Shown piece by piece: positions 7,568-57,097 of a stretch of DNA of 64,000 nucleotides (position 1 is its first letter; each line of letters begins with the position of its first letter). Origin of the DNA: Choricystis sp. odSpoLacu1 (lineage: Eukaryota; Chlorophyta; Trebouxiophyceae); the NCBI GenBank assembly GCA_958009055.1, contig OY253650.1, forward strand, positions 930,001 to 994,000, given 5' to 3'. The position numbers and the translations under genes were made by a program. The notes under the pieces were generated by a model. It did not search any database, was not told the origin of the DNA, and saw only the letters and a program-made list of their open reading frames with translations.

Positions 7568-10059
7568 ATGGGCGCCGGCGCCTCCCGCGCCAAGCTCGCC
7601 TCCGCCGCGGCCGCCGGCGACGCGGCCCGCCTGGACGACGTCGCGGCCGACTGCGACGCGCGCGGCCTGGGCCGCGCCGATAAAGACGGTTGGACAGCGC
7701 TGCACTATGCGTCCGCCGCGGGAGCGGCGGACGCGGTGGCGGTGCTGCTGTCGCACGGTGTGTCACCCGCACCGCGCGCGGCCGACGGTTCGACGCCGCT
7801 GCACTTGGCGGCCCTGTCCGCCTCCCCCGCCGCCATCAAAGCATTGGTGCGGGGTGGTGCGAGCGTGAACGACCTGGACAACGCGGGCAGATCGCCGCTG
7901 GCGGTGGCTGCCGCGGTCGGCGCGGCCGGCGCGGTCGCCGAGTTGGCGCGCGCGGGGGCGGACGCGGGGGCCAGGATGAAGGTAAGAGGGGATGGTGTGG
8001 GTGTGGAAAGGAGCGAGAAAGAGAGAGAGTGTGTGTGTGTCTGCCCGCCGGCGCTTGGGAGGCAGCGACGCAGAGGCGAGAGAGCTGTCCCCGGTCGCGC
8101 GCTGTCCCCCACTCAAAACGCTCTCCCCCACACCCTCCCCCCCACACAGGACGGCACCACCCCCCTCCACCTGGCTGCCGCCGCCGGCCACGCGTCCACT
8201 GTGCACGCCCTGCTGGACGCGGGCGCCCCTCCTTCCGCTGTCGACGCGCGTGGGCGCACCCCGCTGCACGAAGCCGGCGCGGCCAACGCCGTCGCTGCAG
8301 CCACCGCTCTGCTGGGCGGGGGCGCCGACCCACGCGCCCTGAATGAGCGTGGCAGGTCGCCCGCCAATGTGGCGGTGGAGGTGGGCGCCACCAAGGTCGC
8401 GCTGACACTCACAGAAGCGGCCAAGCGGGGCGCGCTGCGCGTCGCGCTGCGCCGCGCGCGCGCGCGGTCGCAGCCGCGCGTGCCGCGCGCGCCGATCCCG
8501 CGACCGTGGCCGCGGTGGAGGAGGACTGGGGCGGCGCGACGCGCGACCCGCGCGCCGCAGGCCCCCGCACCGCCGCCCTGGCCGCCGCCGCGCGGGACGC
8601 GTTTGGCGGGTGGGAGGATGAGGTGTGGACGGGGCCTCCAGAGCCTGTGGCTGCCCATGTAGCGGACGCGTTGCGCGTGCTGGCCAGCACGACAGCTGAC
8701 GCTGCGGTCGGAGCAGCTGCGGCATCCCGCGGCGCGGCGGCCGGGGCCACAGTGGCGGCTGCCGCGGCGGCATCGGCGGCGGCCGCCGCCCTGGCCGCCG
8801 TCACAGCTGGCCTGGCGGCGGCCGCCCCCGCGCCGGTCGAAGGGGTGGGCGCGCCCGCGGGCGCGGTCGTGAGCGTCGCGCGCACTCCTGAGCGCGCGCC
8901 CGCGCCACCGCCCACCCCCAAAGTGGAAGCACCACCGCCGGCCGCCCCGGTGGCGGTGGTGCTGCAGCCTGTGCGCGCCCCTGTGGCGGCGGAGGCGCCA
9001 GCGCCGGTGGCGGCGGCACCAGCGGCAGTCGCACCAACCCCAGCCCCCGCTGCTGCTGCCGTGCCAGACGGCGCCCCTTCCCTCGCCCACCTCACCTACG
9101 GCGACCTGGGCATCGCCACGTCTGGCTTTGCCGACGCCGCCCGCCTGGGAGGGTCGGGCGGCGGCGTGACGTATCGCGGCGTGCTGGCGTCGGCGACACC
9201 CGGCGCCCCCCCCCGCCGCGGTGGCGGTCAAAATCCTCGACCCCGCCACCGCGCCCTCGGGTGACGCGTTGCAAGCGGGTGTCGCCAAGCTGGTGGCTTT
9301 GGCAGCCACCGTGCCCGGCGTGCTGGCCCCCGTGGGCGTGGGCGCGACCGCGCGCGCGCGGTCGTCACGCCGCTGTGCGACGGCGGCACGCTCGCCGACG
9401 TGCTCGCGTGCGCGCCGGCATCCGTGTCGTGGGCCGACCGTGCCTCCATCGCGGCGGCCGTGGCCACCACCACCGCGTCCCTGGCCGCCTCGGGCGGTGC
9501 GCACGGCCGACTGACGCCGGCCAACGTGGGCCTGGTGGCGCGCGGTGGTGCAGGCTTTGCCCCCGTCCTGATCGACACTGGCCTCGCCGCCCTCACCACC
9601 GACCCGGCCGCCGCCTCCCTGGCTGACGCGCCCGCCCTGGGCGCCCTGCTGTTGGCTCTGGTGACGGGCCGCCCCGACGCGGCGGCCGCGGCGGCTGCTG
9701 TGGCGGACGGCGCCGCGGCGGCCGACCCGGCTTTGCCACCGCCGCCGCCCAGCCTAGTGCAAGGCTTGGCCGCTGTCGGGGGCGCCCTGGCGTCCGGATC
9801 GTTGACCCTGGCCGACGCGGCGTCTGCCCTGGCCGCGGTGGCGGCGGGCGATGGTGCCGTGGTGGCGGCGAGGGTGGCAGGAGTGGTCGACCCCCCGCTC
9901 GAGGCGGCCTTGGCCACCGAGGTGGCGCGCAGAGTTGCGAGTGGCGAGATGGTGGGTGCTGCCGCTGCCGACGATGACAAAGGCATGGCCGACCTGGACG
10001 ATCTGCCCACGCCGCCCCCGGTGCCCAAAGAGAGGGAGCGCGAGACGGCGGCTGTGTAA
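7568..10059 (+). CDS. Ankyrin-repeat protein with C-terminal kinase-like (probably inactive) domain
   Basis: Exon 1 is 7568-7981 and exon 2 begins at 8150. The N-terminus MGAGAS fits an N-myristoylation signal. Five to six ankyrin repeats follow (DGWTALHYASAAG, DGSTPLHLAAL, DGTTPLHLAAAAGH, RGRTPLHEAG), then an Ala/Pro-rich linker (~8500-9060). After it comes a kinase-like fold: a VAVKIL lysine at about 9221, HGRLTPANV in place of HRDLKxxN, and DTG in place of DFG. Loss of both catalytic Asp contexts suggests a pseudokinase. The frame changes three times: at (CG)7 8453-8466, C9 9206-9214 and (CG)6 9349-9360. The conserved fold continues across each, so I treat them as indels in one gene. The last frame ends in an acidic tail with stop at 10057-10059. 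An alternative is two separate genes. Confidence 0.7.
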
Positions 10060-10222
10060 AGGCACGGAGATACTGTGTGTAGGAGAAGGGCGACCAGAGC
10101 ACCAGTGTGTGGGGCAAAAAAAAACCTATTCCCTGCTGACCTCTGCCGTCCCCGCGACACACGGCCCCCCACACGACCCCCCCCACGCTCCATAACACAC
10201 AGACCGCGCCCGCCATGACGCA

Positions 10223-12830
10223 ATGGTCGCGGTCCCGTTGACTCTGCGCGCACGGGTGCCGCCTCCACACAGCCGCGCGTCAACTGCACGCCGCTGCCGC
10301 CGTCCCCGCCCCCCCCCCCCCGCCGCGCTTGCCCGCAAACCGCGGCCAGGCGGCGCGCGCACTGGCGCGGTCGCGATGGAGCGCGAACTGGTGCCCGCGC
10401 AGGCGTCCGTGGACGCCGCGAGGGCGCCGCGCTGCAGCGAGCGGCCCCAGTTCCACCTGGCGCCGCCGCACGGGGGCTGGGTCAACGACCCCAACGCCCC
10501 CATTGTGGACACTGAAGGCAGATTGCACTTGGTGAGTGTGGGGCGTGGAGTGTGAGGGGTTGGCGCAGGGACGGGAGCGGCGGGACGAGCAGGCGCGGCC
10601 TGGGCCGCACATTGCACACCGGGCGGCGCGGCCGCGCGCGCAGGCCGCCCCGACGCGGCACGTGTGCGGTGACGGGTGGGCGCACGCTGCTGGATGGCTA
10701 AGACGGAGGGCAGAGGGGAGGAAGGGGGGGGGCAGGCCGCCCGCAGCCAAAGAGGCCCCCCGCACACACGCTGAGCGTGACCCGTTTGACCCTCACCTTC
10801 GCGCCCCGTCTGCGCGCCCCTTTCCGCTCCTCCCTGCCCCCTCGGCCACCTGCTCAACGCGCCCCACGCACGTGTATGAGTCCCAGCTCGGCGATGCGGG
10901 GGGAGTTGGCGGGTGGAGAGGGTGGGGGGAGGGTGACGAGGGGGGCGCGGGAGGGGGCGGGCACACACCATGGCTGGGGGGGGCCGCGCAGCGGACGTGG
11001 CCTCGCACGAAGGCCCACCTTCCCCACACACCCCGTCCCCACGCCTCCCCCCAGTTCTACCAACACCTCGTCGAAGGCTGCACCTGGGACTTTGGCATCG
11101 TGTGGGGCCACGCCGTGTCGGACGACATGGTGACGTGGCGCCACCTGCCGCCCGCCCTGGCCCCGACGCCCGGCGGCCCCGACGCGGACGGCTGCTTCTC
11201 CGGCTGCGCCGCCGTGGACGGTGCCGGCACCATCCACCTGCTGTACACGGGCGTCCGCCTGCGCTCCAACGCGGACGCGGGGCCGCCGCCGCCCCCCGAG
11301 CACGACCTCGCGCTGCCCTTCATCGAAGCCCAGCTGGCCGCCATCCCGGTCGACCCGTCCTCCGACCCCCTGCTCACCCGCTGGCGCAAGCTGGATGCGC
11401 CCGTCCTGCCCCTGCCCCCCCCTAACGCGGGCCTCGTCGGGTGGCGCGACCCGTTTGTGTTTGAGGCGCCCGGGATCAATGGCGCGACCGAGTGGGCGAT
11501 GCTGCTCGGCTCCGGCTTCAAGGGCAAGGGTGGCGCCGCCCTCATCTACCGGGCGCCCTCCCTGACGGCCGGGTGGAGATATGAGGGCTCCATGTGCGAG
11601 TACGACAACGCGGACACGGGCGCGATGTGGGAGTGCCCGTTGATTGCGAAGCTGAGGGTGAGTGGCGAGGGCGCGGGCGGCGCGACCACGCCACCCTCCG
11701 ACGTCGCCTCCAACATCGCGCCCTTCACGCCACGCGGTGGATCGGCGTCAGCGTCGGCCACGACCGCCGACGGCGTCGCCGACGCGGTGGCTGCTTTGAA
11801 GTTGGATGGTGACGGCAACGGCGGGGCAGACGCGCCGCGCGCCACCGCGGCCTCCACCACCGCCTCCTCCCCACACGACCACTTCTTCTGCGTCTCCCCC
11901 GACGCCCCCACCAACCCCGTCCTCTACTGGATGGGCGCGTTTGACGGCGCCACCACGCTCTTTGACGTCGCCACCGCGTCAGGCCCCCACCGCCTCGACC
12001 TGGGCGACATCTTGTATGCGCCCAACCTCATGACCTGCCCCGCGGGACGCACCATTCTCTGGGGCTGGCTGCAGGAGAGACGGGGCGTGGGGTCGTACGA
12101 CTACGCGGGCTGCATGGCGGTGCCACGCGTCCTCACCCGCACCCCGTCCGGCCGCCTGCACCAGGAGCCCGTCCCCGAAGTCGCCGCCCTGCGCACCGGG
12201 CCCTCGTGGGCGGCGGAGCGTGTCCTGCTGGAGCCCGACGTGGCGACGCCTGTCGAACACGTCGCCTCGCCGCGCCTCGACCTCACAGTTGTGCTCGACC
12301 GGGGAGCCGCCTCCGCAGCGGGCGTCCTCGTCCGCTCCTGGGCGGCAGGCGGGGAAGGGTCCGCCGCCATCGTCGTCGACTGGGAAGCAGGCGTGCTCGA
12401 AGCCGTGTTCGAGGGCGGCGGCGGCGACGCGGGCGCCGACGACGCGGCCGCCGCGGCACAGCGCCGCATCGGGGGCCCCGTCGACCTGGGCCCCCCCGGC
12501 TCCCGCGTCGTCATGCGCGTGCTGCTGGACCACTCCGCGTGCGAAGTGTACCTGGGCACGGGGGAGGTGTTGTCGACGCGTGTGTATCGGGGGACCCCCC
12601 CGCCCGGCGCGGACGCGGGGGTCGACCTCGTCGCCTACGGCGGCGCCGCGGTCGCAGTGCTGGTGGAGGCCCACGAAATGGGCACCTCCGCAGCGGGCCT
12701 GGGGCTGGGCAAGGTGGCGGGCGGTTCGCGTGTGGCCGCGCCGCCGCCGCTGGCGCCGCGCGATGTTGGGGCCACCCCCGCGTACGAGCCTTCAGTCCCG
12801 GCCGGCACGGCGGTGCCGACGTCTGGGTGA
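10223..12830 (+). CDS. Glycoside hydrolase family 32 (beta-fructofuranosidase / invertase type)
   Basis: Exons 10223-10531 and 11055-12830 join in phase 0 as RLHL/FYQHL, the family's conserved YHLFYQ segment. All three GH32 catalytic blocks are seen: WVNDPNA (nucleophile Asp), GWRDPFVFE (RDP, transition-state Asp) and MWECP (acid/base Glu). The C-terminal ~200 residues look like the family's beta-sandwich. Substrate (sucrose, fructan or sucrose-6-phosphate) cannot be read from the sequence. Start: ATG 10223 gives 694 aa with an Arg-rich leader that could be a plastid transit peptide. ATG 10376 gives 643 aa starting just before the enzyme. No signal peptide is visible in either. A ~55-residue low-complexity insert follows MWECPLIAKLR at a perfect GTGAGT (11658) and may be an unspliced intron. 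Confidence 0.9.
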
Positions 12831-13394: not shown

Positions 13395-15289
13395 TCACAC
13401 CGCCGCAGGCGGCCGCACCAGCCCACCTTTGCGCCCCGTCACCAGGGCGCCACCATCGTACGCGCCACCATCCTTGTTCAGCCCCCTATCCCCCTTGGAC
13501 CGGGTGGGGCGCATGTGGAACTTGTGCGGGGCGCGGCGCGGGCGGGACGTGGCGGCGGCGGCGGCAGCGGCCTCCACCGCGCCGTCGTCGCCACCACCAC
13601 CATCATCCAGCGCCAGCGCCGCCATGTCGGGCGGAGACAGCGGGTCGGAGGCAGCCGTGCGTGGCCGGGCGGCGGGCGTGGCGGGGGCGGGCGACGCGTC
13701 GTCGTCGTCGTCACCTCGGTCCGCCCACCCGGGCGGCCACTCCCAGTGTGGCAGCCGGCCGCTGCAGTAGTCGCGCAGCACGAGCCGCCCCGCCCGCGCT
13801 TCATCGGGGAGCGCGTTCTGCACGACCCAGCCGCGGGACGCGGCGAAGGTGCGTAGTAGGGTGGCGCCGGTGAGAGTGTCGCTGGTGCTGCCGTCTTCTT
13901 CACCCCTCCCACTCAACGACACCCCATAAATCGACTCCAGGTCGGCTCGCGGCACGCGGGCCGCCACGACGGATGCGGGCGACCGCATATCAGTCAACCT
14001 GTCGATGGGGACAACGCCGGCGGCCACCATGTCAGCTTTGGAGGCCGCCGCGCGAGGCAGGACGAGCCCTGGGCAATCGCACAGCGTCAACTCCCGCCCC
14101 GGCACGTCCAGCGTTTGAAAGTGTTTGGTGCGACCCGGGGTGGGGGCGACCGCCGCTTTTTTGCGCCCAAACAGGGCGTTCAGGGTGGAGGATTTGCCGA
14201 CGTTGGGAAAGCCGACAAAGCCGGCGGTCGGCGGCGCGGCCGCGCGCGCGCGCGCGGCGCGCCCGACGCGGCCGCCGCGTCCCGGCCCGCGAGGGCGAAA
14301 TCCTCCAGTGCGTCCAGCAGTTGGTCGACGGTGAGGATGGGGGGGCCGTCCTCGGTGGTGGGTGGAGGAGGCGGCGGTGGAGGCACGCCCAGCGCGGCGG
14401 CCGCAGCCTCTGCAGCCGCCGCCTTGGTCGCGTCGTCCGCCGCCTTGGCGGACCAGAACACGGCGTCCACGCCCAGGCCCGCAAAGTGGGCCGCCCACGC
14501 CTCCCGCACGCGGGCGGGCAGCAGGTCGGCCTTGTTGAGCAGGACCAGCGTTTTGGGGGGTGGCGCGGGGGCGGCTGCTTCAGCCGCCAACGCCCCCAAT
14601 TCAGCGCTGTAATAACGCAGCGGGTCGCGCCCATCAACCACCTGCACCACCACGTGCGACCTCTCCACCACGCGCCACAGCTGGCGCCACACTTCAACAT
14701 TTTTTTCAAAGGGAGTCAGTGTGAGCGCAGGGTCAGCCTCCAGCGCGGCCAGCCCCCGCCTCCACTCCAGGAAGGCGGCCCTCTCGCTGGCGTCCAGGGC
14801 TTCGGGTGACATGTCGGGCGACCACGGCGGGCGGCGGGGCAGGGTGAGCAGGGGTTCGGCGGCCGCAGTGGCCGCGGCGGCGCGCTCGGCGGCGGCGGCC
14901 GCGGCTTGGGGGTCGTCCACCGCGATCGAGTCGACGATGACGGCGTCGCACGCTTTTTCGGCGGCAAAGTCGCGGTTGGCGAGGGAGGCCTGTGGATGTG
15001 TGAGTGAGGAAGTGTGGAGGCAGGAGGTGAGTGTAGGGCCGCCGCCGCCCGAAAAACACGCCGCGCCCCCTCCGCCCCCCTCTTCCCTCCTCCACAAAAA
15101 ACTCACCAGCTCCATGAACTCGCCCAAGTCGCTGGCCTCCAGCACCGACTGCATGCCGCCGACATCGGTCGTGTGGCGCGTGGACGACGCGGGCGCTGGC
15201 TTCTTCCCCTTCTTGTGCTTGTTGGTCAGGGCCGACCCCACGGGCAGGTGGCCGCCCGAGGAGCGGGACTTGCCGTTGTGGCGGCCCAT
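13395..15289 (-). CDS. LSG1: Large-subunit GTPase 1 (LSG1), circularly permuted GTPase
   Basis: Exon 1 is 15107-15289 (61 codons, MGRHNGKS..) and exon 2 is 14989 down to 13395. Homology is strong: the LTPFEKNVEVWRQLWRVVER block, then the G4 motif NKADLL, then G1 GFPNVGKSS, then G3 DCPGLV. That G4-G1-G3 order defines the YlqF/YawG circularly permuted class. Known: cytoplasmic LSG1 releases the export adaptor NMD3 from 60S pre-subunits. A C-terminal basic tail ends the protein. The frame shifts between the G4 half and the G1 half at a (CG)8 run (14241-14256). Both halves are conserved, so an indel is more likely than two genes. It is divergent from the PPR-SMR gene. Confidence 0.9.
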
Positions 15290-16921: not shown

Positions 16922-16975
16922 AGAGGAGAGAGAGAAGTTTTTTCACAAGTAATGACATCTACCGCCTGCTTCTTT

Positions 16976-25851: not shown

Positions 25852-28506
25852 ATGACCGGCATTCAACGCTCGCCCGTCCCCTACTTTCGCCCGCACAGGG
25901 TGTGGTGTGCAACGCGCCTGGTCGCCGGGATGCAGGTGTCAGCGTCGCTCACCAGCCACCCGTCAGGGCTGCGGGCGGCGCCCCCGCCCCGCGGGGCGGG
26001 GCCACGGTCGCGGCCCCCCCCGCCGACAATGCGGCGCGTCGTCGTCACAGCACGTCCGCACCGCCCACCCCGGTGGCTGCCTCCCGATGTCTGCGCCGCC
26101 ACCAGGGACGATGTAGCATCCGCAGCCTTTGACGGCGATGCTGACGCGGCCCTGCCCTCCATTTATTCTGCTTCAGCAAACGCGGCCTACTGGTCGAGCC
26201 GCCCCGTCGCCTGCCTCGCTCGCGGACTGGAGGTGGGGGGCGCGTTTGTCAAATGGGCTCTCATCACTCGCCCTGCCGCGCCCGATGGTGGCGCCGCCGC
26301 GTTGCGGGAAACCCTCGTAACCCTGGGCGCGTTTTTCGTCAAGGTCGGCCAAGCGCTCGCGTCGCGCCCCGACCTGCTGCCCCCCGCGTTCACGCGGGAG
26401 CTGGAGAAGCTGCAGGATCGCATCCCCCCCTTCTCCGATAACGCGGCGCGCGCCCTGATCGCGGCTGAACTGGGTGTGGCGTCCCCTGACACAATCTTTT
26501 CATCACTCACCCCCACCCCCGTCGCCGCCGCCTCCCTGGGCCAAGTCTACCGCGGCATCGTGTGGGCCACGGGTCAACAAGTGGCCGTCAAAGTGCAGCG
26601 CCCGGGCGTCGCGTCTGCGGTGGCCAGGGACGCGTTTTTGTTGCGCGGCGCTGCCTCCTTCCTGCGCTCCGCGCGCCGCGTCAACACCGACCTGCCCGCC
26701 CTGGTGGACGAGTGGGCGGCCAGTCTGTTTCGTGAGCTGGACTATCGGAGGGAGGCGGAAGCTGGTGCTGAATTCAAAAGGTTGTATGGCGAGTTGGAGG
26801 GAGTGTACGTCCCCTCAATGCTCCCCGAATTGACCACGCGCCGCGTCCTGGTCATGGAGTGGGTGGACGGCACCCGCCTGCGGTCCGCGGGGGACGTGGT
26901 GGAGGGCGGAGGCGGCGGTGGAAACAGTGGCGCCCCTTTTGCGTCCACCCCGGCCAACGCGGCGGCCGACCTCGCCCTGGTCGACGTCGGTGTGCGCTGC
27001 TCGCTGGAACAGATGCTCGAGTGCGGCTTCTTCCACTCCGACCCTCACCCCGGCAACCTGCTGCGCACGCGGGACGGCAAGCTGGCGTACCTGGACTTTG
27101 GGATGACGGGGTCGGTGACGGCGGAGACGAGGTGAGAAGGTGGTGGTGTGTGGGGTGGGTGAAGCGGAGCGAGAGAGAGCGAGCGACGCTGCGCACACAC
27201 ACTCTCGACCACCCTTCCCCCCCACCACCAGGGCCTCCCTCATCACTGCCACCCTGCACCTCGTCAACCGCGACTTCGACGAGCTGGCGGCCGACATGGT
27301 GGTTCTCGGCTTCTTCCCGCCGGGCGCTGAAATGGGAGCCATCGGCCCCGCCCTCACGGGCGTCTTCTCCCGCGCGCTCGCCAACGCGGGCGGCGTCGCC
27401 GCGCTCTCCTTCTCCGACCTGTCCGCCGACCTGGGGCGCACCATGTATGAGTACAACTTCAGGCTGCCCCCGTACTACACGCTGCTGGTGCGCTCGTTGA
27501 GCGTGTTGGAAGGGATTGCCCTTGCGGCCGACCCGAATTACAAGGTCCTCGCCCAAGCCCTGCCCTGGGTGTCGAGGCGGGTGCTGACGTCGCGCGAGCC
27601 CGCCGTGCGGGACGCGCTGCGTGCGTTGCTGTACAAGGGGGGTAATTTCAGATTCGACCGGCTGGAGAGGCTCCTGCTGGAGGCCGCGCGCTCGCCGCCG
27701 CGCCCCGACGCGGAAGCCGCCGCGCGTGCGCGCGGCGCGGGCCCCGACGGCGGCCTCGCCCTGCTCCTGTCCCCCGACGCCGACTTTGTGCGCGGCATCG
27801 TGATGGACGAACTGGCCAAAGCCATTGACGCGGGCGCCCGCGTTGGCGCGGACGGCGCGGTCGCGGGCGCCGCGACTGTGCTGCGCGCGACAGCAGCTGC
27901 GGCGCCGCCCCTGGCGCCGCGGGCGCCGCCGCGCGCCCTGGCTGATGCGCTGGACGCTGTGCCCGCGCTGGCGAGTGCGGCGGACGCCGCCCAGGTGGAC
28001 GGCGTGGTTCGGCTGGTGGCCGCGTTCGGAGAAGTGACGCAGGCGCAGGCACAGCGCGCTGCGGCCGCCGGAGGAGGCGCCACCACCACCACCGCCAGCG
28101 ACGTTGCCGCCACCTGCACTCCCCTGGCCTCCCTGCGCGCCGCCCTGCCCCCCGCCGCCGCGACCGCGGTTGATGCAGCCACCAAGCTGGCGCGCGAAGC
28201 GCTGGCCCTGCCCCCCGACGCACGCGCGGAGGCGGTCGCGCTGCCGCTGCGCGTGGCGGCGGCAGCCGCGTCGCGCGCGGTCGCGCGCGGGTTGAGGGGT
28301 GCGGCCCGGCTGGGGCCGGCGGCGGCGGCGCAGGCGCCCGCGCGCGCGCGCCGCGGCCGAGCGCGGTGCGGGAGGAGGAGACGCGGCCGCCGCCGCCGCC
28401 GCCGCCACCGCAGGCGCAGTCCACTGTGGCGCCCCAGGTGGCAGCCGCCACCAAACAGGCTCGCGTGGTGGTCATGAGGCCGCTGGAGGCGCCGCCGGGG
28501 GGTTGA
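25852..28506 (+). CDS. ABC1-family atypical kinase (ABC1K/UbiB/COQ8 type)
   Basis: Exon 1 is 25852-27131 and exon 2 starts at 27232 (100-bp intron, phase 2). The ABC1 motifs are present in order: the KxGQ helix FVKVGQALASRPDLLPP, the Ala-rich loop AAASLGQVYRG, the lysine AVKVQRPGV, the catalytic-loop equivalent FHSDPHPGNLL and the metal-binding LDFGM. Known: plant ABC1Ks sit in plastoglobules or mitochondria and regulate prenylquinone metabolism. The basic N-terminus suggests organelle targeting; which organelle is unclear. Start candidates are 25852, 25930 and 26029. Downstream of the kinase is a long Ala-rich region. The frame breaks at (CG)6 28339-28350. Before the break it would run Arg-rich to 28477. 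After a shift it reads VREEETRPPPPP and ends at 28506, which I prefer. Confidence 0.87.
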
Positions 28507-28651: not shown

Positions 28652-29291
28652 ATGCTGGCCGCCGCGGCCGCCGCGTTGCGGTGCCGCCTGGCGGCCGCCG
28701 CCTCCACGCCGGCGATCTGGCCGCCCTCCCCCCTGCTTGCCGCCGCCGCCACCCGTGCCACCCCGCCATCGTCGACGCCACTGACGCAAGCGTGGCCACG
28801 CGCGGCGGCATGGGCGCGCTCGGCGTCGTCTGCACCCTCCCCCCCCCTCCCCATCGCCGCCGCCGCCGTGGACGCCCACTCACGCCCTCACCAAGCGCAA
28901 GTTCATGCCGCGCCGCATGGCCCACCTGCTGCAACTACTGGAAGCGGAGGCGGTGGCTGATACGGGGACAGCGCGCGCCGCCAGCGCGGGCGGCCCGACG
29001 CCCGAGTTTCCCGACTTTCGGGCGGGCGACGTGCTCGAAGTGCGGGTCGTCCTGCCCGACGCCCGGCGCCGGGTGGCCATCCTGCGCGGCGTGTGCATCG
29101 GGCGGCGCAACCGGGGGGTGAGGTCGTCGTTCGACGTGTTGACCCACGTTCCCGGGGGCGGCGCCGTCCACCGCACGTTCCCGCTGCACTCGCCCATGGT
29201 GCACGGTGTGCGCATCGTGGAGAGGCGGCGCGCGCGGCGGGCCAAGCTGTACTATTTGAAGGACCGTAATCCCAAGGAGTATCGGACGTGA
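28652..29291 (+). CDS. Organellar ribosomal protein bL19 (probably mitochondrial)
   Basis: The first ~60 residues (MLAAAAAALRCRLAAAAS.., with ARSASS) form an Ala/Arg/Ser presequence. The bL19 domain follows: FRAGDVLEVRVVLPDARRRVAILRG, then RTFPLHSP and the C-terminal RRAKLYYLKDR, all hallmarks of L19. The presequence frame and the domain frame differ by +1, and the switch coincides with a C9 run (28839-28847). Removing one C would join them through ALTKRKFMPRRMAHLL. The mitochondrial call rests on the presequence and on sequence divergence; plastid L19 remains possible. Convergent with importin-5. Confidence 0.82.
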
Positions 29292-29508: not shown

Positions 29509-32500
29509 TCACCCGCCCACCACCTGCGCCAGCGCCGCCTGCTCCGGCGCCGACAGCCGGCCCACGCCCGCGCCCCACACGTCGGGCGGCAGGGCGGCCC
29601 TCATCTGGCGCAGCAGGGTGGCCGCGCGCGCGAGCGTGTCTGCATCGCCGCCCGTGTCGCCGCGCGCGACGCCCCCCGCCGAGCGCAGCGACGACAGCCG
29701 GCAGGTTGGCGTTGCCCGCCCCCAGCACGCGGGCGTCCGAAGCTTCCACCAGGCGCACCAGGCGGGAGGTGGAGGCGCGCGCTTCGGCCACGTCGCAGCG
29801 CAGGGGGAGGCCCGCCACGAAGGCCGACGCGGCGGTCGCGCCGCCGTCGCCGTCGACCGCGGCCGCGGCGGGCGCGTGCTCCACCAGCTTGCCCAGGGCG
29901 GAGATGACGTTGTCGCGGGCGGCGGCGTCGTCATCGTCCGCGTCGGGCGGGACGGTCGCGCCCGCGGCCAGGGCTTTGGTGAGAGCAGCGCCCAGCGCGG
30001 CCCCCGCCGCGGTCGCCAACTCGGCCCGCTTCTCAGCCAGCACGCCCAACCCGTACGCCCCACACTGCCTCAGGGCGGGGTCAGGGGACGCCAACGCCCC
30101 CAGAAGCACGGGCACCGCTTGCGGCGCGTAGCGGACGGAGGCGGCGGCGCAGTGTTCGATGACGTCGTCGACGACGCACACCGCGACGCGGCGCTCGCCC
30201 GGGGCCGCGTTGCGTTCGTCCAGCAACGGGGCCAGGTGCGGCATCAACGCGTCCACGGACGCGCCCAGCGCGTCGCCGTGGGCGGCCAGGGCGGCCGACA
30301 CGACGGAGGCAGCGGCGTCGAGGAGGTCTTCCTCGCCCTCCAGCTCCGCGTCCAGAGCATCAGCCTCCTCTGCATCAAAGTCTTCGCTCGCGCGCCGCGC
30401 CGCGCGCGCCGCCCTCCGCTTGGCCGACGCCTCCAGCACGCCCCGCACCCGGTCCAGGGCGGCCGCCGCGTCGGGGGCGGTGAGGGCGGCCGGGCCCGCC
30501 ACCTCGATGACGTCGCGCACGGCTTCGAGGGAGGTGGCCTGGACGTCGGGTTCAGGTTCTTTCGCAACCGCGTCCAACAGCGGCGGCCACACAAACGCCA
30601 CCATGCGCGCCACGTAGGCTGCGTCCGCGCCTGGAGCCCCCGCCTCAGCCGCGGTCGCTGCCGACCGCAGCAGCTCGGGCAGGGCTTGGGCGGCGGCTTG
30701 GCGCACACCCTCGTGAAAGTAGAATTTGAGGAGGGGGACCATCACCCCCGTCACTTGTTCGACGTACGGGAAGAAGTCATCCCTCAACTCTTCCGCATAG
30801 CACACCAGCATGGCGCACGCGGTGGCTTTGTCCTCCAGGGCGGAGGTGCGGATCTGGATGCGGCGCCCGCCGACGATGATGATCTCGGCGTCGTCGTCGT
30901 CGTCGGTGGCGCCGCCCTCCTCATCGTCTGCGTCCGTCACCGACACGTCGGGCGCGGCCTGGGCGGCCGCCAGCAGGGGCGGCATCACCGTGCCCAGGTA
31001 GGGCAGGAAGTCGCGCCCCAGGCACTTGCAGAGGCGGGCGCCCGCTTGCAGGGCGTACGAGGCGGTGGGGTCGTCAGCCGCCACGCCCCCCCCACTCGCC
31101 GCCACCGACTGCAGCAACGCCATGACGGCGTGCGCGTCCGGCCTGAACTTGTCGGGTCCCACCGCCATGCCGACGAGGGAGGCGCATTCCAGGGCTTTGG
31201 CGCGGAGGAGGGCGCCGCCCGGCGTGGCGGAGGGGGGGGCTGCCAGCGCGGAGCGCAGGAGCGGCATGACCGAGTCATAGTGCTTCTCAAAGTCGGTCTT
31301 GGAGGCGTCTGCGACGGAGGCCAGTGCTGTCAAAGCTCCTTCAGTCACCATGCAGGGGCCGGAGGCGAGGAGGGAAAGGAGGGTGGAGACGAGCGCGTCG
31401 AGGTGGGGCGCCAACACGCGCGCGTCGGCCGCCTCTGTGAAGTTGACCAGGGCGGCGGCAGCGTGAGCCTGGACGCGGGGGGAGGCCGCGTCCCGCATGA
31501 CGGCCACGAGGGCGGGCAGGATGCGGGCGCCTTGGGCGCGTTGGAGGGAGGGGCCGAGGTCGGTGCAGGCCTGGCCGACGGCCTGGCACGCAGCCCACCT
31601 CACTTTGGGGTGGGGGTCGGCCAGGCCGGCGAGACACGCGTCGACCAGGGGGGCCAAGGAGCCGGACAGGGCTTTGGCGCACCCCTCCGCGACTTGGGCG
31701 AGCATGACGAGGGCGGCGTGGCGTTTGCGCCAGTCCGGGGCGGCCGCGAGGGACGGAAGCGCAGCCGAGACGAGGGGCGCCACCGTGCCGCCTCCCAGCG
31801 CCAGGGCCAGCCGGTCCAGGCACTCCTGCCCAAACTCGAACAGCTCGCCATCGCCATCGTTGGCGTGGGCGTCGGTGTCGGCGCGGTGCCAGGAGGGGTC
31901 GTCCTCTATGTCGAGCAAAAACGCGACGCACAGTTGGAAGAGGCGGGCAAGCACAGCGGGCAGGCGCCGCATCATCCCCGGCGCTTTTTCGCGAGCCTCG
32001 CACAGCGTCAGCACGAGCTCAGCCGCCAGTTGGCGGGTGGGTGGGTCCAGGGTGTCGGCTTCCGCGATGTGGAGCATGGCAGTGACCGTCTCAGCGAGGT
32101 GCCGCCTCAAAAAGCGCGGGTGGTCCTCCGCCACCTCCATCATCGCCTCCACCGCGTCCTGGGCCGCCGTCTCGTCGCCCGCGTTGAGGGAGGCGGCGAT
32201 GGAGGCCAGCATGGCGGGGACGAGGGATTGGAGGGCGTCGCGGTCGGCGGGCGTGTCGACGGAAGCCACAAAGGCCACCGTCGCGCGCACCGCGGCGGCA
32301 GCCACATCAGGAGACTGCGACGACAGGTGGGTAGACAGCACGGTGTGCAGGGTGCCCATGTAGGACCGCAGCGGGGCGGCCAGGTAGGACGCGAGCGACA
32401 CTAAGATGAGGAGGGACGCCTCCGCAAGGCGGGGGTCGGGCGACTGGGCGCACTGAAACACAAAGGGGAGGAGCTCGGGCCAGGGGGAGGCGTCCATGGT

Positions 32501-33197
32501 GGCGCCCGCCAGCTCGGAGATGGTGTCACAGACCTAGTGGAAGAGTGTGTGGGGGGTGGGTGGGCGAGGCAGAGAGAGGCGCGGGTCTCGACAACCCCTC
32601 TTCTCTCTCCTCCCACACACAAACCTTGTGCGTCGTCGTGCGTTGAGCGTCATTCTGCACGCACGCCAGCAGGCCCGCCTTGACGGCGGTCTGGGTGTCG
32701 GCGGACAGGGAGGGCCAGAGGGAGGGGGTGTCCTTGGTGAGGACCTGTGGGGAGAGAGGAGAAGGGTGGGTCGACCGAAACGTCTGCGCGCTTGCCACCC
32801 CAGCCGTCGCAGCCTGGATTGCACCCGCCCACCCCCTCGCCACCCGGTCGCCCCACCAGCCGTGACCACCACCAATCACAGGTACCGCCGGTGGCCGGCA
32901 TCGGGCACCGGGCACGCGCGTGTGGCGCGTCGGGGGGCCGACGCGCCGCAAATCGACGCTCTCTCGCCAATCGCGCACCTTGCGCAGCAACACCGCGCAC
33001 AAACCCCGCGCGTCCAGCTCGGCGGACGTTGTCAGCACAGCCAGCAGTCCTCTCACGCAGGCGTCGGGCGAAGCCCGCGCCTCTGCAAAGCGCGCCTCCC
33101 CCGCCGCGCGCGCCGCATTGTCGGGCGACAGCAGCGCGGTGATCACGGCTTCAAAGGCGGCGTGCTCGGGGGCGACGCCGCCGGTGGGGGCGGCCAT
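29509..33197 (-). CDS. IPO5: Importin-5 / karyopherin beta-3 (HEAT-repeat nuclear import receptor)
   Basis: Exons 32979-33197, 32625-32744 and 32533 down to 29509, all phase 0, about 1,074 aa, the family's usual length. Strong anchors: VCDTISELAG, DDPSWHRAD, RVQAHAAAALVNFTEAAD, YAEELRDDFFPYVEQV.MVPLLKFYFHEGVR and VCVVDDVIEHCAAASV. HEAT repeats run throughout. It binds RanGTP and imports ribosomal proteins and histones. The last ~50 codons change frame at a C6 run (29672-29677). In the new frame the C-terminus (RLSAPEQAALAQVV) again matches the family, which proves the frame change lies within the gene. Without correction the protein would run into a junk tail ending at 29252. Confidence 0.95.
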
Positions 33198-37316: not shown

Positions 37317-37356
<40 letters not shown>

Positions 37357-40009: not shown

Positions 40010-40044
<35 letters not shown>

Positions 40045-41878: not shown

Positions 41879-42179
41879 TTTGAGGGGGGTGTGCGTGTGG
41901 GAGTGTGAACTCAAAAAGGGGGGGTGGCGAGAGGGACGACACGAGAGAGGCGGACGGATGCCGAACACAAAACGCGAGCCGTCGTCGTCCTCTTCCGACG
42001 AGAGAGTGCGGAGGTCGAGCGCGCTTGTGTGGAATCGAAACACCACTTCTTCTTTTGCCTCGCCCGCCCCCCCTCTCCTGTGTGCGCGGACGCGCGGGGG
42101 CGCGCACACCACCGCCCCACCCCGACACTGCGGGGGCGTCAATCAGAGCCTCCCTGACCCGCGCACACACACGCGCGCG
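41879..42179. promoter_or_regulatory. Shared intergenic region FtsHi / F-box gene
   Basis: 301 bp between divergent ATGs. It contains a T-rich patch near 42040-42060 and a CA run before the F-box start. No gene seen. Confidence 0.4.
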
Positions 42180-43645
42180 ATGGCGCTCCCCGACGCCGAC
42201 ACCGACCCTCCCCTCCTGACCGACCTCCCCCGCGACTGCGTCGCCGTCGCCACCCTGCTCTCCCTCCTCCCCCCCCCGACCTGGCGGCTGCTGCCACCTC
42301 CTGCCACCTCCTGGCCGACGCGGCGGAGGACGCGTGGCGACTCAAGTGTATGGCTGATTTTGGGGGGGTGACCGACCCACGAGCCTGGCTGTCGCCCAGC
42401 GGCAGTGGCGCCGTCCACCACCACCACCAGCAGCACACGCCCACCGGGCGCCCACCACGTCCACCGTTTTTGAACGGGCCCTCCCCCGCACGATCAGAGG
42501 ACGCCGATGGAGACGCGTCCGACGGCACGTGCCCCGATTACGCCTCTGTCTACCGCCTCCTCACCCGCCTCGCCGCCCTCATCGGCCTGTGGCGGGACGA
42601 TGCAGGCCGCCTCGTCGCCCTGGCCTGGCGTGGTGCTCGTGTCACGGCGGATCGGTTGACGTTTTTGTCGGCGAGGGGGACGCCACCCTACCGATCCCGC
42701 GTCGCCGACATCGGCCTCTGCGATGCAGCCACCGTCGCCGACACGGCGGACGCGTCCCGCTGCGTGCTGCGGTCGCGGCGACCTCGGGAGGGCGGGTATG
42801 GGCCGCGCGCTGATGCCGACACCGCGTCCGGGTCGCCCGCGGCGGGCGCGGCTGCTGCCGTCGCGATCGGCGCTGCGCACGCAGACATGCTGGGCACCTC
42901 CCCGGTCGGCTCCTTTGAGCGTGAAATGCTGAGGTTCATGGGGTCGGTGGTGGCGCGGTCGTCGGGTGGGCGGGCGGCGCGGCGGGCGCGGTCGCGCGGC
43001 CCGCGCAGCGGCGACGGCGGCGCGACCCACTTGACGCGCGTGGTCACCCCCGTCGCCACGCGCGCGCACCCGCTCGCCGGCCTGTGGCGCGCCCACGCTC
43101 CCGGAGATGATGGTGAGGGTGAACGTGAAGACGACGATGGCGACGGCGACGCCACCGCCCCTCCACCCCAGATCCTGGCGTTGAGTTATGATTTTGCGGG
43201 CCCGTCCGCGCGCCTCGTCGCCACCGTCGTCGCGGGCGGCCCCCCGGGCGGCCCCCCTCCCGGCTCCGTCGCGTGGACGGCGGCCGCTGCCCCGCTGCCC
43301 ACGCCATGGCCGGCCAAGGATGCAGCGCTGGTGGGGCTGCGCTGGCTACTGGCGGGTGGAGGCGACGACCACGAGCGGGGAGGAGGAGGAGGCGGCGGAG
43401 CGCCTGAACCGCGGGAGGTCGCTGCCGTGCACCGCGGCCGGGGCGTGCCGCCCGGGGGCGGCGCGGCACCCGCGGGCCTGCCCGCCCGCCTGCAGCACGT
43501 TGGCGGCGGTGCGTCGTCGACGTGCGAGGGGCGGCTCTGGCGATACGCAGACGGGCTTGGGTTGGCATTCGTCTGGTTGCCGTCGGGTGGTGGCCCCGAG
43601 TCGATGTGCGAGTATGAGCCCGTGCCGCCGTGCCATGTGGCGTGA
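42180..43645 (+). CDS. F-box-like protein
   Basis: The N-terminus reads LLTDLPRDCVAVATLLSLLPPP in the first frame and DLAAAATSCHLLADAAEDAW in a second. Joined across the C9 run at 42269-42277 they form a normal F-box (LPxD..xxILSLLPPxDLxxxAxxCxxLxxxAxDxxxW). The remaining ~400 residues include an LAGLWRAHAPGDDGEGE region and a compact end GLAFVWLPSGG, with no motif I recognise. Known: F-box proteins are substrate adaptors of SCF ubiquitin ligases. The target is unknown. The frame switch makes the ATG at 42180 appear detached from the main ORF; an alternative start inside the main frame would lose half the F-box. Confidence 0.65.
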
Positions 43646-45367: not shown

Positions 45368-48221
45368 ATGTCCGACGCCGACGTCGCGGCCCTCCTGCGC
45401 GCCCTGCGCGACGCGGGCCTGCACTCCTCGGCCGACACCCTGGTCCGGGAAGCCGATGAGCGGGGGCTGCTGCCTGGAGGCGGCGGGGACGCGGGGAGAG
45501 CAGGGCCGTCGCGCGGTGGGCCGCGGGAGGGGGGCCACGACTTGCCCGGCACGTGGCTGGGGGAGCCGGGTGGGCCGGTGCTGGCACGCAGGTGAGCGAG
45601 AGTGAAGGGAGGGGAGGAGGTGGGGAAAATGGCTTTTTTTTGTATTCGACGAGGCCGCACCCGACCCACCCACCTCCCCCACCACCACGACAGGTCTGTC
45701 GACGCCTCCACGTCCACCCACCCGTCCCGCCGCTCCCTGGATGGCCCGCCAGGCATGCCCACCTTTGGCTCCCCCCCCCGCCCCGGCGGCGGTGTCCCGT
45801 CCCCCGCCGCGCTGGCGTCGCCGCCCGCGCCTCGCCCCCCCCCCCACCTCGGACGACGATTACGACGATGACGACGACCCGGGCTACGTGCGCGACACTG
45901 TGGACGGCCCCGGCGGCGACCCCGCCCTGGCGGCCGAGCTGGCGAGGGCGCTGGCCGCCTCGTCGCGCGACGAGGGGGCGGTCGCCATGGAGCTCTACAA
46001 AGCCGCCCGCGCCGCCGCAGCCGCGGGCGGGGGGCCGGGCGGCAGCAGTGGCGACGTGACGGGGGGGGCGTCGCCTCCCTCGCGCGGCTCGCTGAGCGCG
46101 GCGCGCGTGCGGGGGTCTGGGTCGGCCACCCCCCGCCACGACGGAGGGGGCGCCGTCGTCCGCCTAGCTGCGCCCGTCCTGTCCTCCTCCTCCCTGTCCG
46201 CCATGGCGGGGGGTGGCGGCGGCTCCAACAGTCCCGGGCGGCCGGGGCTGCCGAGGCCGCCGTCGGCTGTGTCTGTCGGCGCGGGGGGCGACGACGCGCC
46301 GCTCCAACGCCAACTCTCCATGGACAGGCGGTCGCCGCCGCCGCACAGCACTGCGTGGCCGCCCAACCTGGTTTTCGGTGGTGGTGTGAGTGGCACCGTC
46401 GCCCCTGGGTCGCCGCCGCAGCCGCCCGCGTCGCCGCTCGGCGGTGGGTCGGCCCGGTCGGCCGCGTCGTCGCCATCGCCTTCGCCGCACAGGGTGGGCA
46501 GCGAGGCGCCGTCGTCGCCCGGCGATGATGAAGCGGCGGCAGCAGCAGCCACGCCACCACCAGCGGCGGCGGCGCGCCCGCCCGCCGTCCCGCCGCCACC
46601 CGCCACCACGCCACCCCCCGCGTCTGCGTTTTCGTTCCCCGTCACCCCGCCCGACGCGCCCGCCGCGGCGCCCGCGGCCGCCGTGTTTGGGTCGTGGACA
46701 TCGTTGAGAAGGGCTAAAAGTGGGGGCGCCTCGTCCGCGTGGTCGCTGGATGCTCCCACTGAGGGCGACAGCGACGACGGCGACGGTGGCGAGCGCCGCG
46801 CGGCGGGCGGCCCCGCGCGCGCGGGGAGGCGGTTTGTGGGCGGGCGGCGCTGGGCGCCCGGCCCCGTGCGGTCGCCGCGCGGCATGGCCGCCCCCGACGC
46901 CGACTCGGCCGCGTTGTTGGGCGTGGGGGGCGGCGGTGGCGCTGGGCTCGTGTCATCGCTCAGCGCGCCACTCGCCCCCCACCCACCGCGCAGAGCCTCC
47001 CCTCCCCCCCCCTCCCGCTTCGACGCCGCCTCCTTTGCCGACACCTACGAAGAACTCAACCTGCGCATCGTGGCCCGGCGCGGGCGGGCGGGCCCGGAGC
47101 CCGCGCGGTCGCTCGCGCTGAGAGCGAACGACGTGATTGCCGGCCGCTACATCGTGCTCGCCCCGCTAGGCGCGCCCTCCGCCTTTGCGGCAGCCGTGTC
47201 CGCGCTGGACACGAAAGCCGCGACTCTGGTGGCGTTGAAAGTAGTGCACAACCGTAAATCGGCGCTGGACGCAGCTTTAGATGAAATACGAGTCCTGCGC
47301 ACGGTCGCGGCCGCCGCGCCGCGCGGCGACGCGGGGGCGGTGGGCTGTGTCCGGCTGCTTGATTTCTTCTACTACCGGGAGCACTTGTTCCTGGTCACCG
47401 AGCTGCTGCGCGCCAACCTGCACCAGGTGGCGCCCGCGCGGCCGCCGCCCAGAGCGGCCCCACTCGGCGCGTCGCCCTCCCCACCCCACCACCCACCCTA
47501 CTTCACCCTGCCCCGCGTCCAGCACGTGGCCCGCCAGCTGCTGCGCACGCTGGCCTTCCTGCACGCGCACGGCATTGCGCACGCGGATGTGAAGCCTGAG
47601 AATGTGTTGCTGAAATCGGCGGCCACAGCCGACATCGCCCTCATCGATTTCGGCTCCGCCACCTTCTACGCCTCCGACCCGCCCTCCGCCTACATCCAGT
47701 CGCGCGCGTACCGCGCCCCGGAGGTCGTGCTGGGGTGTGGGTACGATGGGCGCATCGACGTGTGGTCGGTGGGGTGTGTGGTCGCGGAGCTGATCTCCGG
47801 GCGCGTCCTCTTCCAATCCGACGGTGGCGGCGCCTCCCTGCTGGCCCGCGTCACCGGCATTGTGGGTCCCCCCCCCACCTGGATGCTGAGGAGTGGGGCG
47901 GCGGCGCACAGATTCTACACACCTTCGGGCGCGCTGTATGAGCGCGCGCCGGGAGCGCCGGCACGTGCAGCCCTCTTACGCCCCAAGCGCACCTCCCTGG
48001 GCGCCCGCGTGCGTGGGGCGGACGCGGGCGCGCTGAGTTTCCTGGCGGCGTTGTTGACGGTGGATCCCACGAAGCGGCCGTCGGCGGCCGAAGCGCTGAC
48101 CCACCTCTGGCTGTCTGTGGAGTACGGCGGCGGCAGCGGCTTCGGCACGCCCGCCGCGCCGTCGCCCACCGCCAGCCCGCCGCCGGGGCGGGTGGGGGCG
48201 GGTTTTGTGGTGGCGGATTGA
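45368..48221 (+). CDS. Plant-type DYRK kinase (DYRKP class) with LisH-like N-terminus
   Basis: Exon 1 is 45368-45591; exon 2 starts at 45694 (102-bp intron, phase 2). Residues ~3-35 (DADVAALLRALRDAGLHSSADTL) resemble a LisH motif. An acidic block DDDYDDDDDPGYVRDTVD, characteristic of plant DYRKPs, follows, then a long Ser/Pro/Ala-rich region. The kinase domain begins near 47120: ANDVIAGRYIV, catalytic Lys in VALKVV, FFYYREHLFLVTELL, HADVKPENVL, IDFGS, and the activation-loop segment YIQSRAYRAPEV, with the DYRK autophosphorylation Tyr position. The HRD is HAD, close to plant HCD. The frame shifts by +1 at a C11 run (45835-45845) in the linker; correcting one C joins the LisH exon to the acidic block. 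These kinases act in growth, cell-cycle and storage control in algae and plants. Confidence 0.9.
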
Positions 48222-50116: not shown

Positions 50117-50368
50117 CGTGCACGGGGGGCGCGGTGAGGCGGTGGGCGAAGTCGCGCGCGTTGCGGGCGGTTTAGAGGACACAATGCGGGATTGTGTTTT
50201 GGGGGCAGCTGTTTTGTGGCGCGCATTTGAAAAAAATCACGAACGTGTCACCCCCCGCGTGCCACCGTGTTCGAAAGCCAGGCATGAACACAAACTGTAA
50301 CTACACACAAGCGCAGGCGCGAACAAAAAAAGAATTTTAAAAAATGTCGTTGCCGTATGTCTAAAAAC

Positions 50369-54237: not shown

Positions 54238-54625
54238 CGATTGGGAATGGGGGGCGCAGGTGGCGTGCCGAGCGCAGCGCCCTGCTGGCCTCCCCGAGAC
54301 GTGTGGCGATGTGTGTGTGTGTGAAAGGCGGGGTGCCGTGGACGCTGGGGCGTGTCGCGCGCGCCAGCAAAAGCACACGCAGACTGAGAGAGAGACGGAG
54401 AGAAACGACGGCACAACGAAGAAAAACCACTTGTATTCGTGGCGCGTTGCGCGCGCCGCTGCTTGCCTCCGCGTGGCCTCCGCTCCGGTCGCCCGCGTGT
54501 CCGCCTCTGGCACCGCAGCCTGACAGCCTCCGCGCCTTCGTGCACCAATCGGGGCCCGAGCTGCCTGGCGTCACGCCTTTTTTCTCCACCCCCCATCGCG
54601 CGCCCCTCGCGTCTCGCGACCACCC
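54238..54625. promoter_or_regulatory. Shared intergenic region RecG / EBS-SHL
   Basis: 388 bp between divergent starts. It holds a GTGT tract (54308-54321) and a GA-rich segment (about 54380-54425). No conserved ORF and no TATA box recognised. Confidence 0.4.
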
Positions 54626-55710
54626 ATGCCGCCCAAAGCGGCGGTGCCCACCACGGTGCTCAAGGCGGTCGAGTTCAAGGGGGACAACGACGAGGCGACG
54701 TTGACGTACAAAGGTGAGGGGGATGGGTGGGCAAGAACACACACATAGAAAAAACGCAACGCACACAAAAAGGGCTCAACACCTGACCCTTTTTCCCCAA
54801 ACCTCCCTCCTTCCCCCCAGTCGGCGACAACGTGCTCATCAGGGGCGAAGGCTCCGATCTGCCGTTTGTGAGTTATGGGGGCGTGTGGTTTGGGGATGTG
54901 GGGGGGGAGAAGTGAGGCTCTGTTTCCGGGGAAAAACGGCACCGGTTTCTCGCGCCGTGTTTTTTGTGTGCTCACGTGGTCCTCCCTCCTCTTTCCAAAC
55001 TCAGGTCGCCCGCATCACCGACATCAGAGTCCCCAAAGACCACGCCAAGCGCCCGCCCAACGCGGACAAGACGGCGCTGGCGGTGACGTGGTATTACCGC
55101 CCTGAGGAGTGAGTGTGTGTGTGTTGTGGGCCGGTGCAGAAACAAGAGCGCGAAAAAAAGGGGTGAACAACCAATCACTCACACACACGCACACACACAC
55201 ACACCATCACCACCCCAAAATCACAGGGTCATGGGCGGCCGCAAAGCCTTCCACGGCGCCCGCGAGCTGCTGGCCTCCGACCACGCCGACTCGGCGTCCC
55301 TGGCGACCGTCCTGTCCAAAGCGCGCGTGCTGCCGCTGTCCGACTACCTGGCCTCCCTCCCCGCCGCCGACGGCGACGGTGGAGCCACCGCCCTCCCCCC
55401 CGACCTGTTCTACACGAGATACAGGTTCCTGGTGGCCAAGGTGAAGGGCGGTGAAGAGCGCCCCGCGCGATTCGAACCCGATCGAGTCCCTGTTGTCTGC
55501 GCGTGCGCGCTGCCCTTCAACCCAGACCAACACTACATCAAGTGTGGCCAGTGTGGGGATGCGTGCCACCCGGGGTGCGTGGGGTTGGCGCCCCGCGCGC
55601 GGCAGCCGGAGGGGTGGGTGTGCCCGACCTGTGTCGCGGGCGCGGGCGCCGCCAACGGGGGTGTGCGGGCGGGCGAGGCGACGGCGGGCGGCCCACAGAC
55701 GCAGGCTTAG
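54626..55710 (+). CDS. BAH-PHD chromatin reader, EBS/SHL type
   Basis: Four exons, 54626-54713, 54821-54867, 55005-55108 and 55227-55710, total 240 aa with consistent phases. The BAH domain spans residues ~30-165: VGDNVLIRGEG, VARITDIRV, then TWYYRPEE and GGRKAFHGARELLASDH, the EBS/SHL hallmark. The PHD finger follows (residues ~175-225): CACALPFNPDQHYIKCGQCGD..CHPGC..GWVCPTC supplies the C4HC3 ligands. Known: plant EBS and SHL bind H3K27me3 through BAH and H3K4me3 through PHD and repress flowering genes. In an alga a general chromatin-reader role is inferred. Total length is close to Arabidopsis SHL. Confidence 0.93.
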
Positions 55711-56287
55711 TCAGGCCCTGCGTTTGTTCCACTTTTTCTCTACGGCGTGTGTGTTTCAAACGGGGCGGACCCCCACACGGGCGCGCACACACACAACTCC
55801 CTCTGCGCGCGCGCCCCTGCATCTGGTCGCCTCCTCCCCTCTCTGGGGTGGGGGCTTTCTGGGCACACGAAACTGGGGGCGGCATGTTTCTATCTCCGAA
55901 AGAGACGAGGATGCGATGGATGGAGGGGCCGCGTGCGTGGGGTGTGCGGAGTCTGGGGGGGCGGGTGAGGGGGTGCGAAGTCGGAGAGAGGGGAGACGAC
56001 AAACAACAATGAACGAGCCACCCCGAGCCACTTTCTTTTTCCTTCTGTGTTTTCTTCTTCTTCCACGCACTGTGCACGCCCCCCACAAACCAAAGGACTT
56101 GTCAAAAAAAAACGCTTCACCTGCTGCCGGCTGCAAAAAAACACACACGAGAGTTCTTGTTTCTGCTGGGGAAGAGGGTCGAGTCATCGCACGCAAACCA
56201 CACACACGCTCTCTCTCGTCCCCACCCACACACACATCACACGCAAACCACACACACGCTCTCTCTCGTCCCCACGCACCGTCCACA
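55711..56287. other. Intergenic region with a direct repeat, no gene seen
   Basis: 577 bp between the EBS/SHL stop and the PsbP-1 stop (convergent). It contains a purine/GT-rich left half and, at 56191-56275, two copies of a 35-bp repeat. Frames here are short and CA/GT-driven. Confidence 0.45.
56191..56275. repeat. 35-bp direct repeat, two exact copies
   Basis: Copies at 56191-56225 and 56241-56275, starting ACGCAAACCACACACACG, separated by 15 bp that are also CA-rich. They lie in the 3' region of PsbP-1. Too few copies and no leader for a CRISPR. Confidence 0.88.
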
Positions 56288-57097
56288 TCAAAGCACGGTG
56301 AACGACGACGCCGCCTCCATTGCGCCGACGCTGCTCCCCTTGAACCAACGCTTGTCGCCAACCACCACATGGAGAACGGTCAAATCTTTCGTCGTCGGAG
56401 ACACCGCCGCCACGATCAGGTTGTGACGGCCGCCTTCATCCCCGTCCGCGGTGCGGGTCAAAATGTCAAACGAATAATAATCAGTCTCCCCCTTTTTATA
56501 CTCCTCCACCCCCAGCAACGATGCCGCCGCAATCTTGTTGGGCTGGAACCCGCCCTCAGACCGGGACGTGCCCGTGTAGGCGGTGGAGTCGCCCAGCAGG
56601 TATTTGAGGGAGGTGAGGACTTCTTCTGTCGAGCCGTAGTCTTTGATTGAGTTTTTGCTGCCAGGGTTTTTCAGAATGGTAATGGAATTGGTGAGGTCTC
56701 CATTGTCCTGGAACATGGCCACGGTTCCCTTAAAAGGGCGCTCTTTGGAGGGGTTGGTCCAGCGGGAGGGGAGGTTGAGTTTGAACCCGTCGCCCGTGGC
56801 GGGCACAATACCAGTCGCGTTGGTAGGTTTCCCGCCAAACACGCGCGCCGCGTCGCCATAGGCGGCAACCGCGGGGGGGGGGAACGGCGACCGCGGCGGC
56901 GGCGGCGGCCAGGGTGGCCAGCGCGGAGCGGCGGGTGGGTTGGGGGGCGGCCTGTGTGGTGTTGAGAGGGAGTCGAGCCGAGACGCGGCCACGCCAATCG
57001 AGCGTCGCTTTTCCCTCTCTCTCTCTCTCACCTGCGCAGCCTCCGCCTTGATGGGCGCCACAGGCGCGCGCGACGCGGATGAGACGGCTTTGTGCAT
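56288..57097 (-). CDS. PSBP: PsbP (23-kDa oxygen-evolving enhancer protein), copy 1
   Basis: Exon 1 is 57032-57097 (22 codons); exon 2 is 56951 down to 56288. A bipartite leader is seen: a stromal part (MHKAVSSASRAPVAPIKA), then PTRRSALATLAAAAAAVAV with the twin Arg of a Tat thylakoid signal. The mature protein starts AAYGDAARVFGG. The PsbP core is clear: TSRSEGGFQPNKIAAASLLG, YYSFDILTRTADGDEGGRHNL and GDKRWFKG near the C-terminus. Known: PsbP stabilises the Mn4CaO5 cluster of photosystem II in the lumen. The frame breaks by +1 at a G10 run (56873-56882) exactly between the Tat signal and the mature protein. Exon 1 and the Tat signal are out of frame with the mature part unless one base is removed, so this copy could be a pseudogene or an assembly error. 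Confidence 0.87.
   Translation of the reverse strand: MHKAVSSASRAPVAPIKAEAAQVREREREKRRSIGVAASRLDSLSTPHRPPPNPPAAPRWPPWPPPPPRSPFPPPAVAAYGDAARVFGGKPTNATGIVPATGDGFKLNLPSRWTNPSKERPFKGTVAMFQDNGDLTNSITILKNPGSKNSIKDYGSTEEVLTSLKYLLGDSTAYTGTSRSEGGFQPNKIAAASLLGVEEYKKGETDYYSFDILTRTADGDEGGRHNLIVAAVSPTTKDLTVLHVVVGDKRWFKGSSVGAMEAASSFTVL

Follow-up and report, generated by a model that had tools for sequence, protein, structure and literature searches.

The stretch of DNA analysed here (the window) comprises 64 kb of contig C2 (OY253650.1, positions 930,001 to 994,000) from the assembly GCA_958009055.1 of Choricystis sp. odSpoLacu1, which has a size of 14.59 Mb in 19 contigs. The host is a green alga, as seen from photosynthesis genes such as PsbP and from the named relatives of its LSG1, which come from Coccomyxa and Trebouxia (the closest among the matches listed). 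The GC content of the sampled DNA is 70.2% and TTAGGG telomere repeats are present at those contig ends that were inspected. A previous reading of the window from its letters (the sequence-only reading) reported ten C/G homopolymers or CG-dinucleotide runs at which the frames of conserved genes break, and all ten tracts are found in the window with the coordinates and lengths given there. We report that homology backs five of these breaks, i.e. those in LSG1 and importin-5, two within a kinase-like domain and, less firmly, one in PsbP, and that long C/G and CG tracts in the sampled genome are accompanied by changes of codon phase, predominantly with the sign of one surplus repeat unit.

The gene for LSG1 (large subunit GTPase 1; coding region 13398-15289, minus strand) carries (CG)8 at positions 14241-14256. 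As reference we used P0001, a 626-residue single-frame metagenome protein related to LSG1, from which the start codon of the window's gene was placed. Up to the tract, one frame gives a gapless alignment with P0001 residues 1-349 (305/349 identical, 87%), and a second frame, read from the first base past the tract, aligns to residues 350-626 with 258 of 282 columns identical (91%). On P0001 the two frames abut (349|350) with two bases left over, codon phase likewise gives a +2 change, and over the break site P0001 reads GAPRTRAAAPPTAGFVGFPNVGKSS in one frame. The two leftover bases fit one surplus CG unit; had two units been missing, two further residues would be expected. In this respect LSG1 is the only case that favours one surplus unit over two missing units. 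No second close copy of LSG1 is present in the assembly, where its other matches are 36-43% identical. The coding region also contains a putative intron at 14992-15109 (minus strand; GTGAGT...CCACAG), which is in frame both in the window and in P0001 and diverges more than its flanks.

In the importin-5 coding region (29509-32533, minus strand, counted from the first base of the open frame and including the other frame past the tract) a +1 change was found in the 3' end region at G6 (transcript sense; 29672-29677), although it could instead sit in the adjoining CGTCGCGCGCG. Similarity to human importin-5 extends to about G6 in one frame, and all eight listed relatives (the window's own protein excluded) continue like the other frame of the window (...LLRQM...ALP...). 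The sole other match in the genome is 31% identical, i.e. there is no second close copy of this gene either.

Three of the tracts are located in an ankyrin-repeat and kinase-like gene (7289-10056, plus strand), which was read as four pieces and has matches to Ank families on 7289-8659. The first, (CG)7 at 8453-8466, gives a +2 change by codon phase only (margins 22.7 and 11.7, no homology across the tract), while C9 at 9206-9214 (+1) and (CG)6 at 9349-9360 (+2) both lie within the kinase-like domain and are backed by codon phase and a profile match. With XXX inserted at each join before the Pfam search, PK_Tyr_Ser-Thr spans C9 and (CG)6 with 130 residues on 130 profile positions and a score of 22.4 bits, just below the cut-off of 23.1; the last kinase piece by itself scores 13.1 bits. 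The catalytic motifs of this domain look degenerate (HGRLTPANV, LIDTGLA), and it is perhaps a pseudokinase.

Two tandem PsbP genes occupy 56291-58566 on the minus strand, each with an apparent short intron, at differing positions, and over its two matched segments the second copy (57735-58566) shares 47% and 65% identity with the first. In the first copy, C10 (transcript sense; 56873-56882) separates the signal peptide from mature PsbP with a +1 change: the mature protein begins AYGDAAR in one frame, and RRSALATLAAAAAAVAV, which we take to be a twin-arginine-like signal, is encoded just before C10 in another. A putative 80-nt intron (GTGAG...ACACAG; 56952-57031, minus strand), read from the sequence, would place the transit peptide in frame with the signal peptide. 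The second copy has the same layout in a single frame, with its signal peptide in frame. Such an intact neighbour would suit the idea that the broken genes are pseudogenes, but LSG1 has not decayed, since it is 87% identical before its break and 91% after, neither LSG1 nor importin-5 has another close copy, and breaks are located at long tracts throughout the sample. We therefore give pseudogenes next to no probability.

Of the remaining tracts, C9 at 28839-28847 (plus strand, +1) separates bL19 from what is presumably its mitochondrial targeting peptide, in a probable mitochondrial bL19 gene (28652-29288, plus strand; best chain 7pkt_n, mitochondrial ribosomal protein L19, E 2.7e-29). The upstream phase margin is 5.6 here, homology is found downstream only, beginning near the tract, and an intron upstream could account for the change. 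C9 at 42269-42277 (plus strand) shows a +2 change by codon phase (margins 11.4 and 9.4) in a protein that by eye resembles F-box proteins; the F-box-like piece gave no Pfam match, and neither of the two matches listed for 42158-43642 covers the tract. C11 at 45835-45845 (plus strand), with a +1 change by codon phase, falls in the N-terminal, low-complexity portion of a gene encoding a protein kinase (Pkinase on 45606-48218). These three tracts and (CG)7 are less well supported than the five breaks backed by homology. Finally, (CG)6 at 28339-28350 (plus strand) resides in an open reading frame (ORF; 27119-28474) without a Pfam match, and the break claimed there is not established, the phase scan described below having called it "strand".

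Apart from this tract the reported frame changes are reproduced, in that codon phase on the same strand gives the reported sign at nine of the ten tracts at margin 3 and at eight at margin 7. The statement that five of six homopolymer breaks are +1 agrees with codon phase, the exception being C9 at 42269 (+2), and the common sign proposed for four CG breaks holds for (CG)7 at 8453, (CG)6 at 9349 and (CG)8 at 14241 (all +2), leaving out 28339. Homology also upholds the downstream frame in importin-5, LSG1 and, less firmly, PsbP. To speak of ten conserved frames is too strong, as homology places five breaks at the tract.

For the phase scan a three-periodic model was trained on long ORFs, using the window and 25 stretches of 10 kb each (314 kb; stretches L001-L004 and L030-L034 excluded), and the frame was called on either side of each tract. 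The method uses no homology; the model is self-trained and may include some wrong frames. Counts are given at margin 7 unless stated otherwise, with tracts called unclear, strand or edge left out (40/66 of the C/G runs of at least 10 nt and 5/15 of the CG runs of at least 14 nt). At informative control positions 578/4940 were shifted without sign bias (in frame/+1/+2 = 4362/299/279). For C/G runs the shifted fractions were 195/1533 (length 4), 91/932 (5), 50/295 (6), 18/103 (7), 9/48 (8), 7/28 (9) and 22/26 (at least 10), and for CG runs 56/575 (6-7 nt), 11/160 (8-9 nt), 2/57 (10-11 nt), 3/9 (12-13 nt) and 7/10 (at least 14 nt). Hence CG runs of 8-11 nt are without effect (those of 10-11 nt gave 55/1/1), and C9 (p 0.039), C6 (p 0.0096) and CG runs of 12-13 nt (p 0.079) show a mild excess over the control. 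GC-only trinucleotide repeats were shifted in 13 of 80 cases. The longest classes, which clearly exceed chance, gave in frame/+1/+2 counts of 4/17/5 (C/G of at least 10) and 3/0/7 (CG of at least 14 nt), and at margin 12 these became 4/12/0 and 1/0/4. The signs match our visual reading of the frames in LSG1, PsbP and importin-5, and a simpler phase scan, from which signs were not taken, showed the same split (C/G of at least 9: 15 in frame and 15 shifted; control: 2238 and 58).

The effect is also seen outside the window, where 19/23 C/G runs of at least 10 nt (Fisher p 2.9e-14 versus control) and 5/8 CG runs of at least 14 nt (p 1.1e-3) were shifted, and 20 of the 24 shifts had the sign of one surplus unit (p 0.0015; homopolymers 15/19, CG 5/5). 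Several of the genes concerned can be read by homology. In stretch L014 a family A DNA polymerase domain (organelle-type) is split at (CG)9 (7110-7127), with homology to E. coli Pol I reaching the tract in one frame and restarting just past it in another. The two halves of an MFS transporter occupy two frames around C15 in L018, and an Nrap-like gene with four shifted tracts in L028 encodes its domains 4 and 5 in a frame other than that of domain 3. A hexokinase split at position 4388 of L014 was rejected as a clean break, since approximately 97 nt between the homologous parts leave room for an intron. The telomere arrays in L030-L034 (ends of C1-C3) combine TTAGGG with blocks of GTAGGG, TTAGGA and TCAGGG in a mix that varies by end; in these five arrays the variants are mostly of the substitution type and the G runs are short, so they have little bearing on long runs.

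Long mononucleotide and dinucleotide runs generally mutate fast, which would suit the possibility that the tracts are hypermutable and that the sequenced culture holds contingency-like length variants. Random drift predicts equal phases, however, and the C/G runs of at least 10 nt outside the window gave 4/15/4 (p 0.0029 versus one third each). Contingency (phase-variable) loci, moreover, typically reside in genes for surface components or in other genes that can be dispensed with, whereas the affected genes here include LSG1, importin-5, bL19, PsbP and DNA polymerase A; those tested have housekeeping roles, and two of them lack a second close copy. On these grounds hypermutability appears very unlikely.

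Introns spanning the tracts could also restore each frame. Short introns are present in this genome (PsbP, LSG1), and they could account for tracts backed by codon phase only. Furthermore, repeats of other dinucleotides, presumed to be largely intronic and intergenic, had a near-random phase (31/24/37; 61/92 shifted, without strong sign bias), and C/G runs of at least 10 nt differ from this pattern (p 0.001). Contiguous homology leaves no room for an intron at LSG1, importin-5, the two kinase-domain tracts or the polymerase (CG)9, and introns predict no sign by repeat type; that they explain the breaks is therefore exceedingly improbable.

A further alternative is that the tract lengths are true in the DNA and that expression restores the frame wherever C and CG runs are long, in one direction, either through slippage of RNA polymerase or through frameshifting on the ribosome. 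Sequence constraint does persist past the break in LSG1 (258/282 columns) and importin-5, the predominant direction would suit a fixed recoding step, and a poly(A) precedent is described for AT-rich insect endosymbionts in the part of PMC5009743 drawn on here. If true, this would add a novel form of recoding on the scale of a whole genome, a GC-rich counterpart of endosymbiont poly(A) slippage. Recoding would, however, need to work efficiently on repeats as different as C and CG runs, correcting both by one unit of the same sign, at roughly a thousand places when scaled to the assembly, and part of the long tracts are in frame. P0001 and the eight listed importin relatives also keep one frame, although database proteins are single-frame by construction and thus show intact relatives only. 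Each protein search covered about 8,000 candidates at most, so further relatives may exist. We regard recoding as extremely unlikely.

The data instead suggest that the assembly very probably over-calls C/G homopolymers (at least 10 nt as written) and CG runs (about 14 nt or longer) by one unit. Within a coding exon, everything downstream of a surplus unit would be displaced from its frame, by one base for a homopolymer and by two for a CG run. Shifts at C/G and CG runs rise with length, and their sign is predominantly that of one unit, as this error model predicts. We infer that the cause lies in read consensus or polishing rather than in the DNA itself, because of the strong length threshold, the mostly one-unit surplus in both repeat types and the unbroken relatives of housekeeping genes that lack a second close copy. 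The sequence-only reading had likewise favoured a systematic consensus error, and the length dependence, the sign per repeat type and the two-base leftover in LSG1 lend support to it. Except in LSG1, frame equates one surplus unit with two missing units, these being the same modulo 3.

Several observations weigh against over-calling. Among the long tracts 4/26 C/G runs and 3/10 CG runs are in frame, and 5 of the 22 shifted homopolymers have the opposite sign. Runs of A/T were also shifted, in 12/30 cases at length 6 and 11/19 at length 7, without sign bias, and the ten CG runs of at least 14 nt do not differ significantly from the other-dinucleotide repeats (p about 0.10). A high shift rate is by itself not diagnostic, and we assume that the shifts at A/T runs and other-dinucleotide repeats are mostly due to introns; within coding exons, A/T runs are too scarce for a comparison. 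Six of the ten tracts in the window (three C9, two (CG)6 and one C6) are below the lengths with a strong effect, the importin-5 C6 thus belonging to a class that is only mildly enriched for shifts. P0121, the window's importin protein, is moreover assigned in the protein database to a 1,340,986-bp contig, its end broken in the same way, compared with 1,428,307 bp for C2, and given the other size a second assembly may exist; if this record represents an independent assembly, the importin break is reproducible. Some of the six shorter tracts may be sporadic errors or, for C6, alternatively a reproducible difference. In addition, the part of PMC12007338 consulted ties nanopore deletions, not insertions, to homopolymers.

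Taken together, the frame breaks most likely reflect an error in the data that can be corrected, and are probably no sign of new biology. If so, roughly a thousand coding breaks in the assembly are artefacts; extrapolated from 29 shifted tracts in 314 kb, the full 14.59 Mb would hold about 1,350, a rough figure in which background is partly included. The predicted proteins and pseudogene counts of the assembly would therefore need correction before use. Since the phase scan has no need of relatives, it could flag similar faults in other GC-rich genomes.

Length errors in long-read assemblies, as described in passages of PMC7500977 and PMC12007338, likewise break the frames of conserved genes at homopolymers. 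According to the former, homopolymer errors in nanopore fungal assemblies are more often over-predictions of length and PacBio-only fungal assemblies are free of the problem, and the latter cites homopolymer indels as most of the errors in PacBio circular consensus sequencing (CCS) reads. The effect in the present assembly differs in being pronounced only where C/G or CG runs are long, and in being mostly a one-unit surplus; errors at CG runs, seen here, do not feature in the descriptions in those passages. The poly(A) slippage of insect endosymbionts (PMC5009743, in part) also concerns frameshifted homopolymers in otherwise conserved genes, whereas here the tracts are C/G and CG, the genome is nuclear, one sign predominates and the shifts are known from DNA sequence alone. 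With respect to the genome as such, Medakamo hakoo, as reported in the part of PMC9871001 used, is another green alga with a small GC-rich genome (15.8 Mb, 72.7% GC, 18 contigs, TTAGGG telomeres, PacBio RS II), to be compared with 14.59 Mb, 19 contigs and, in the sample, 70.2% GC for the alga studied here.

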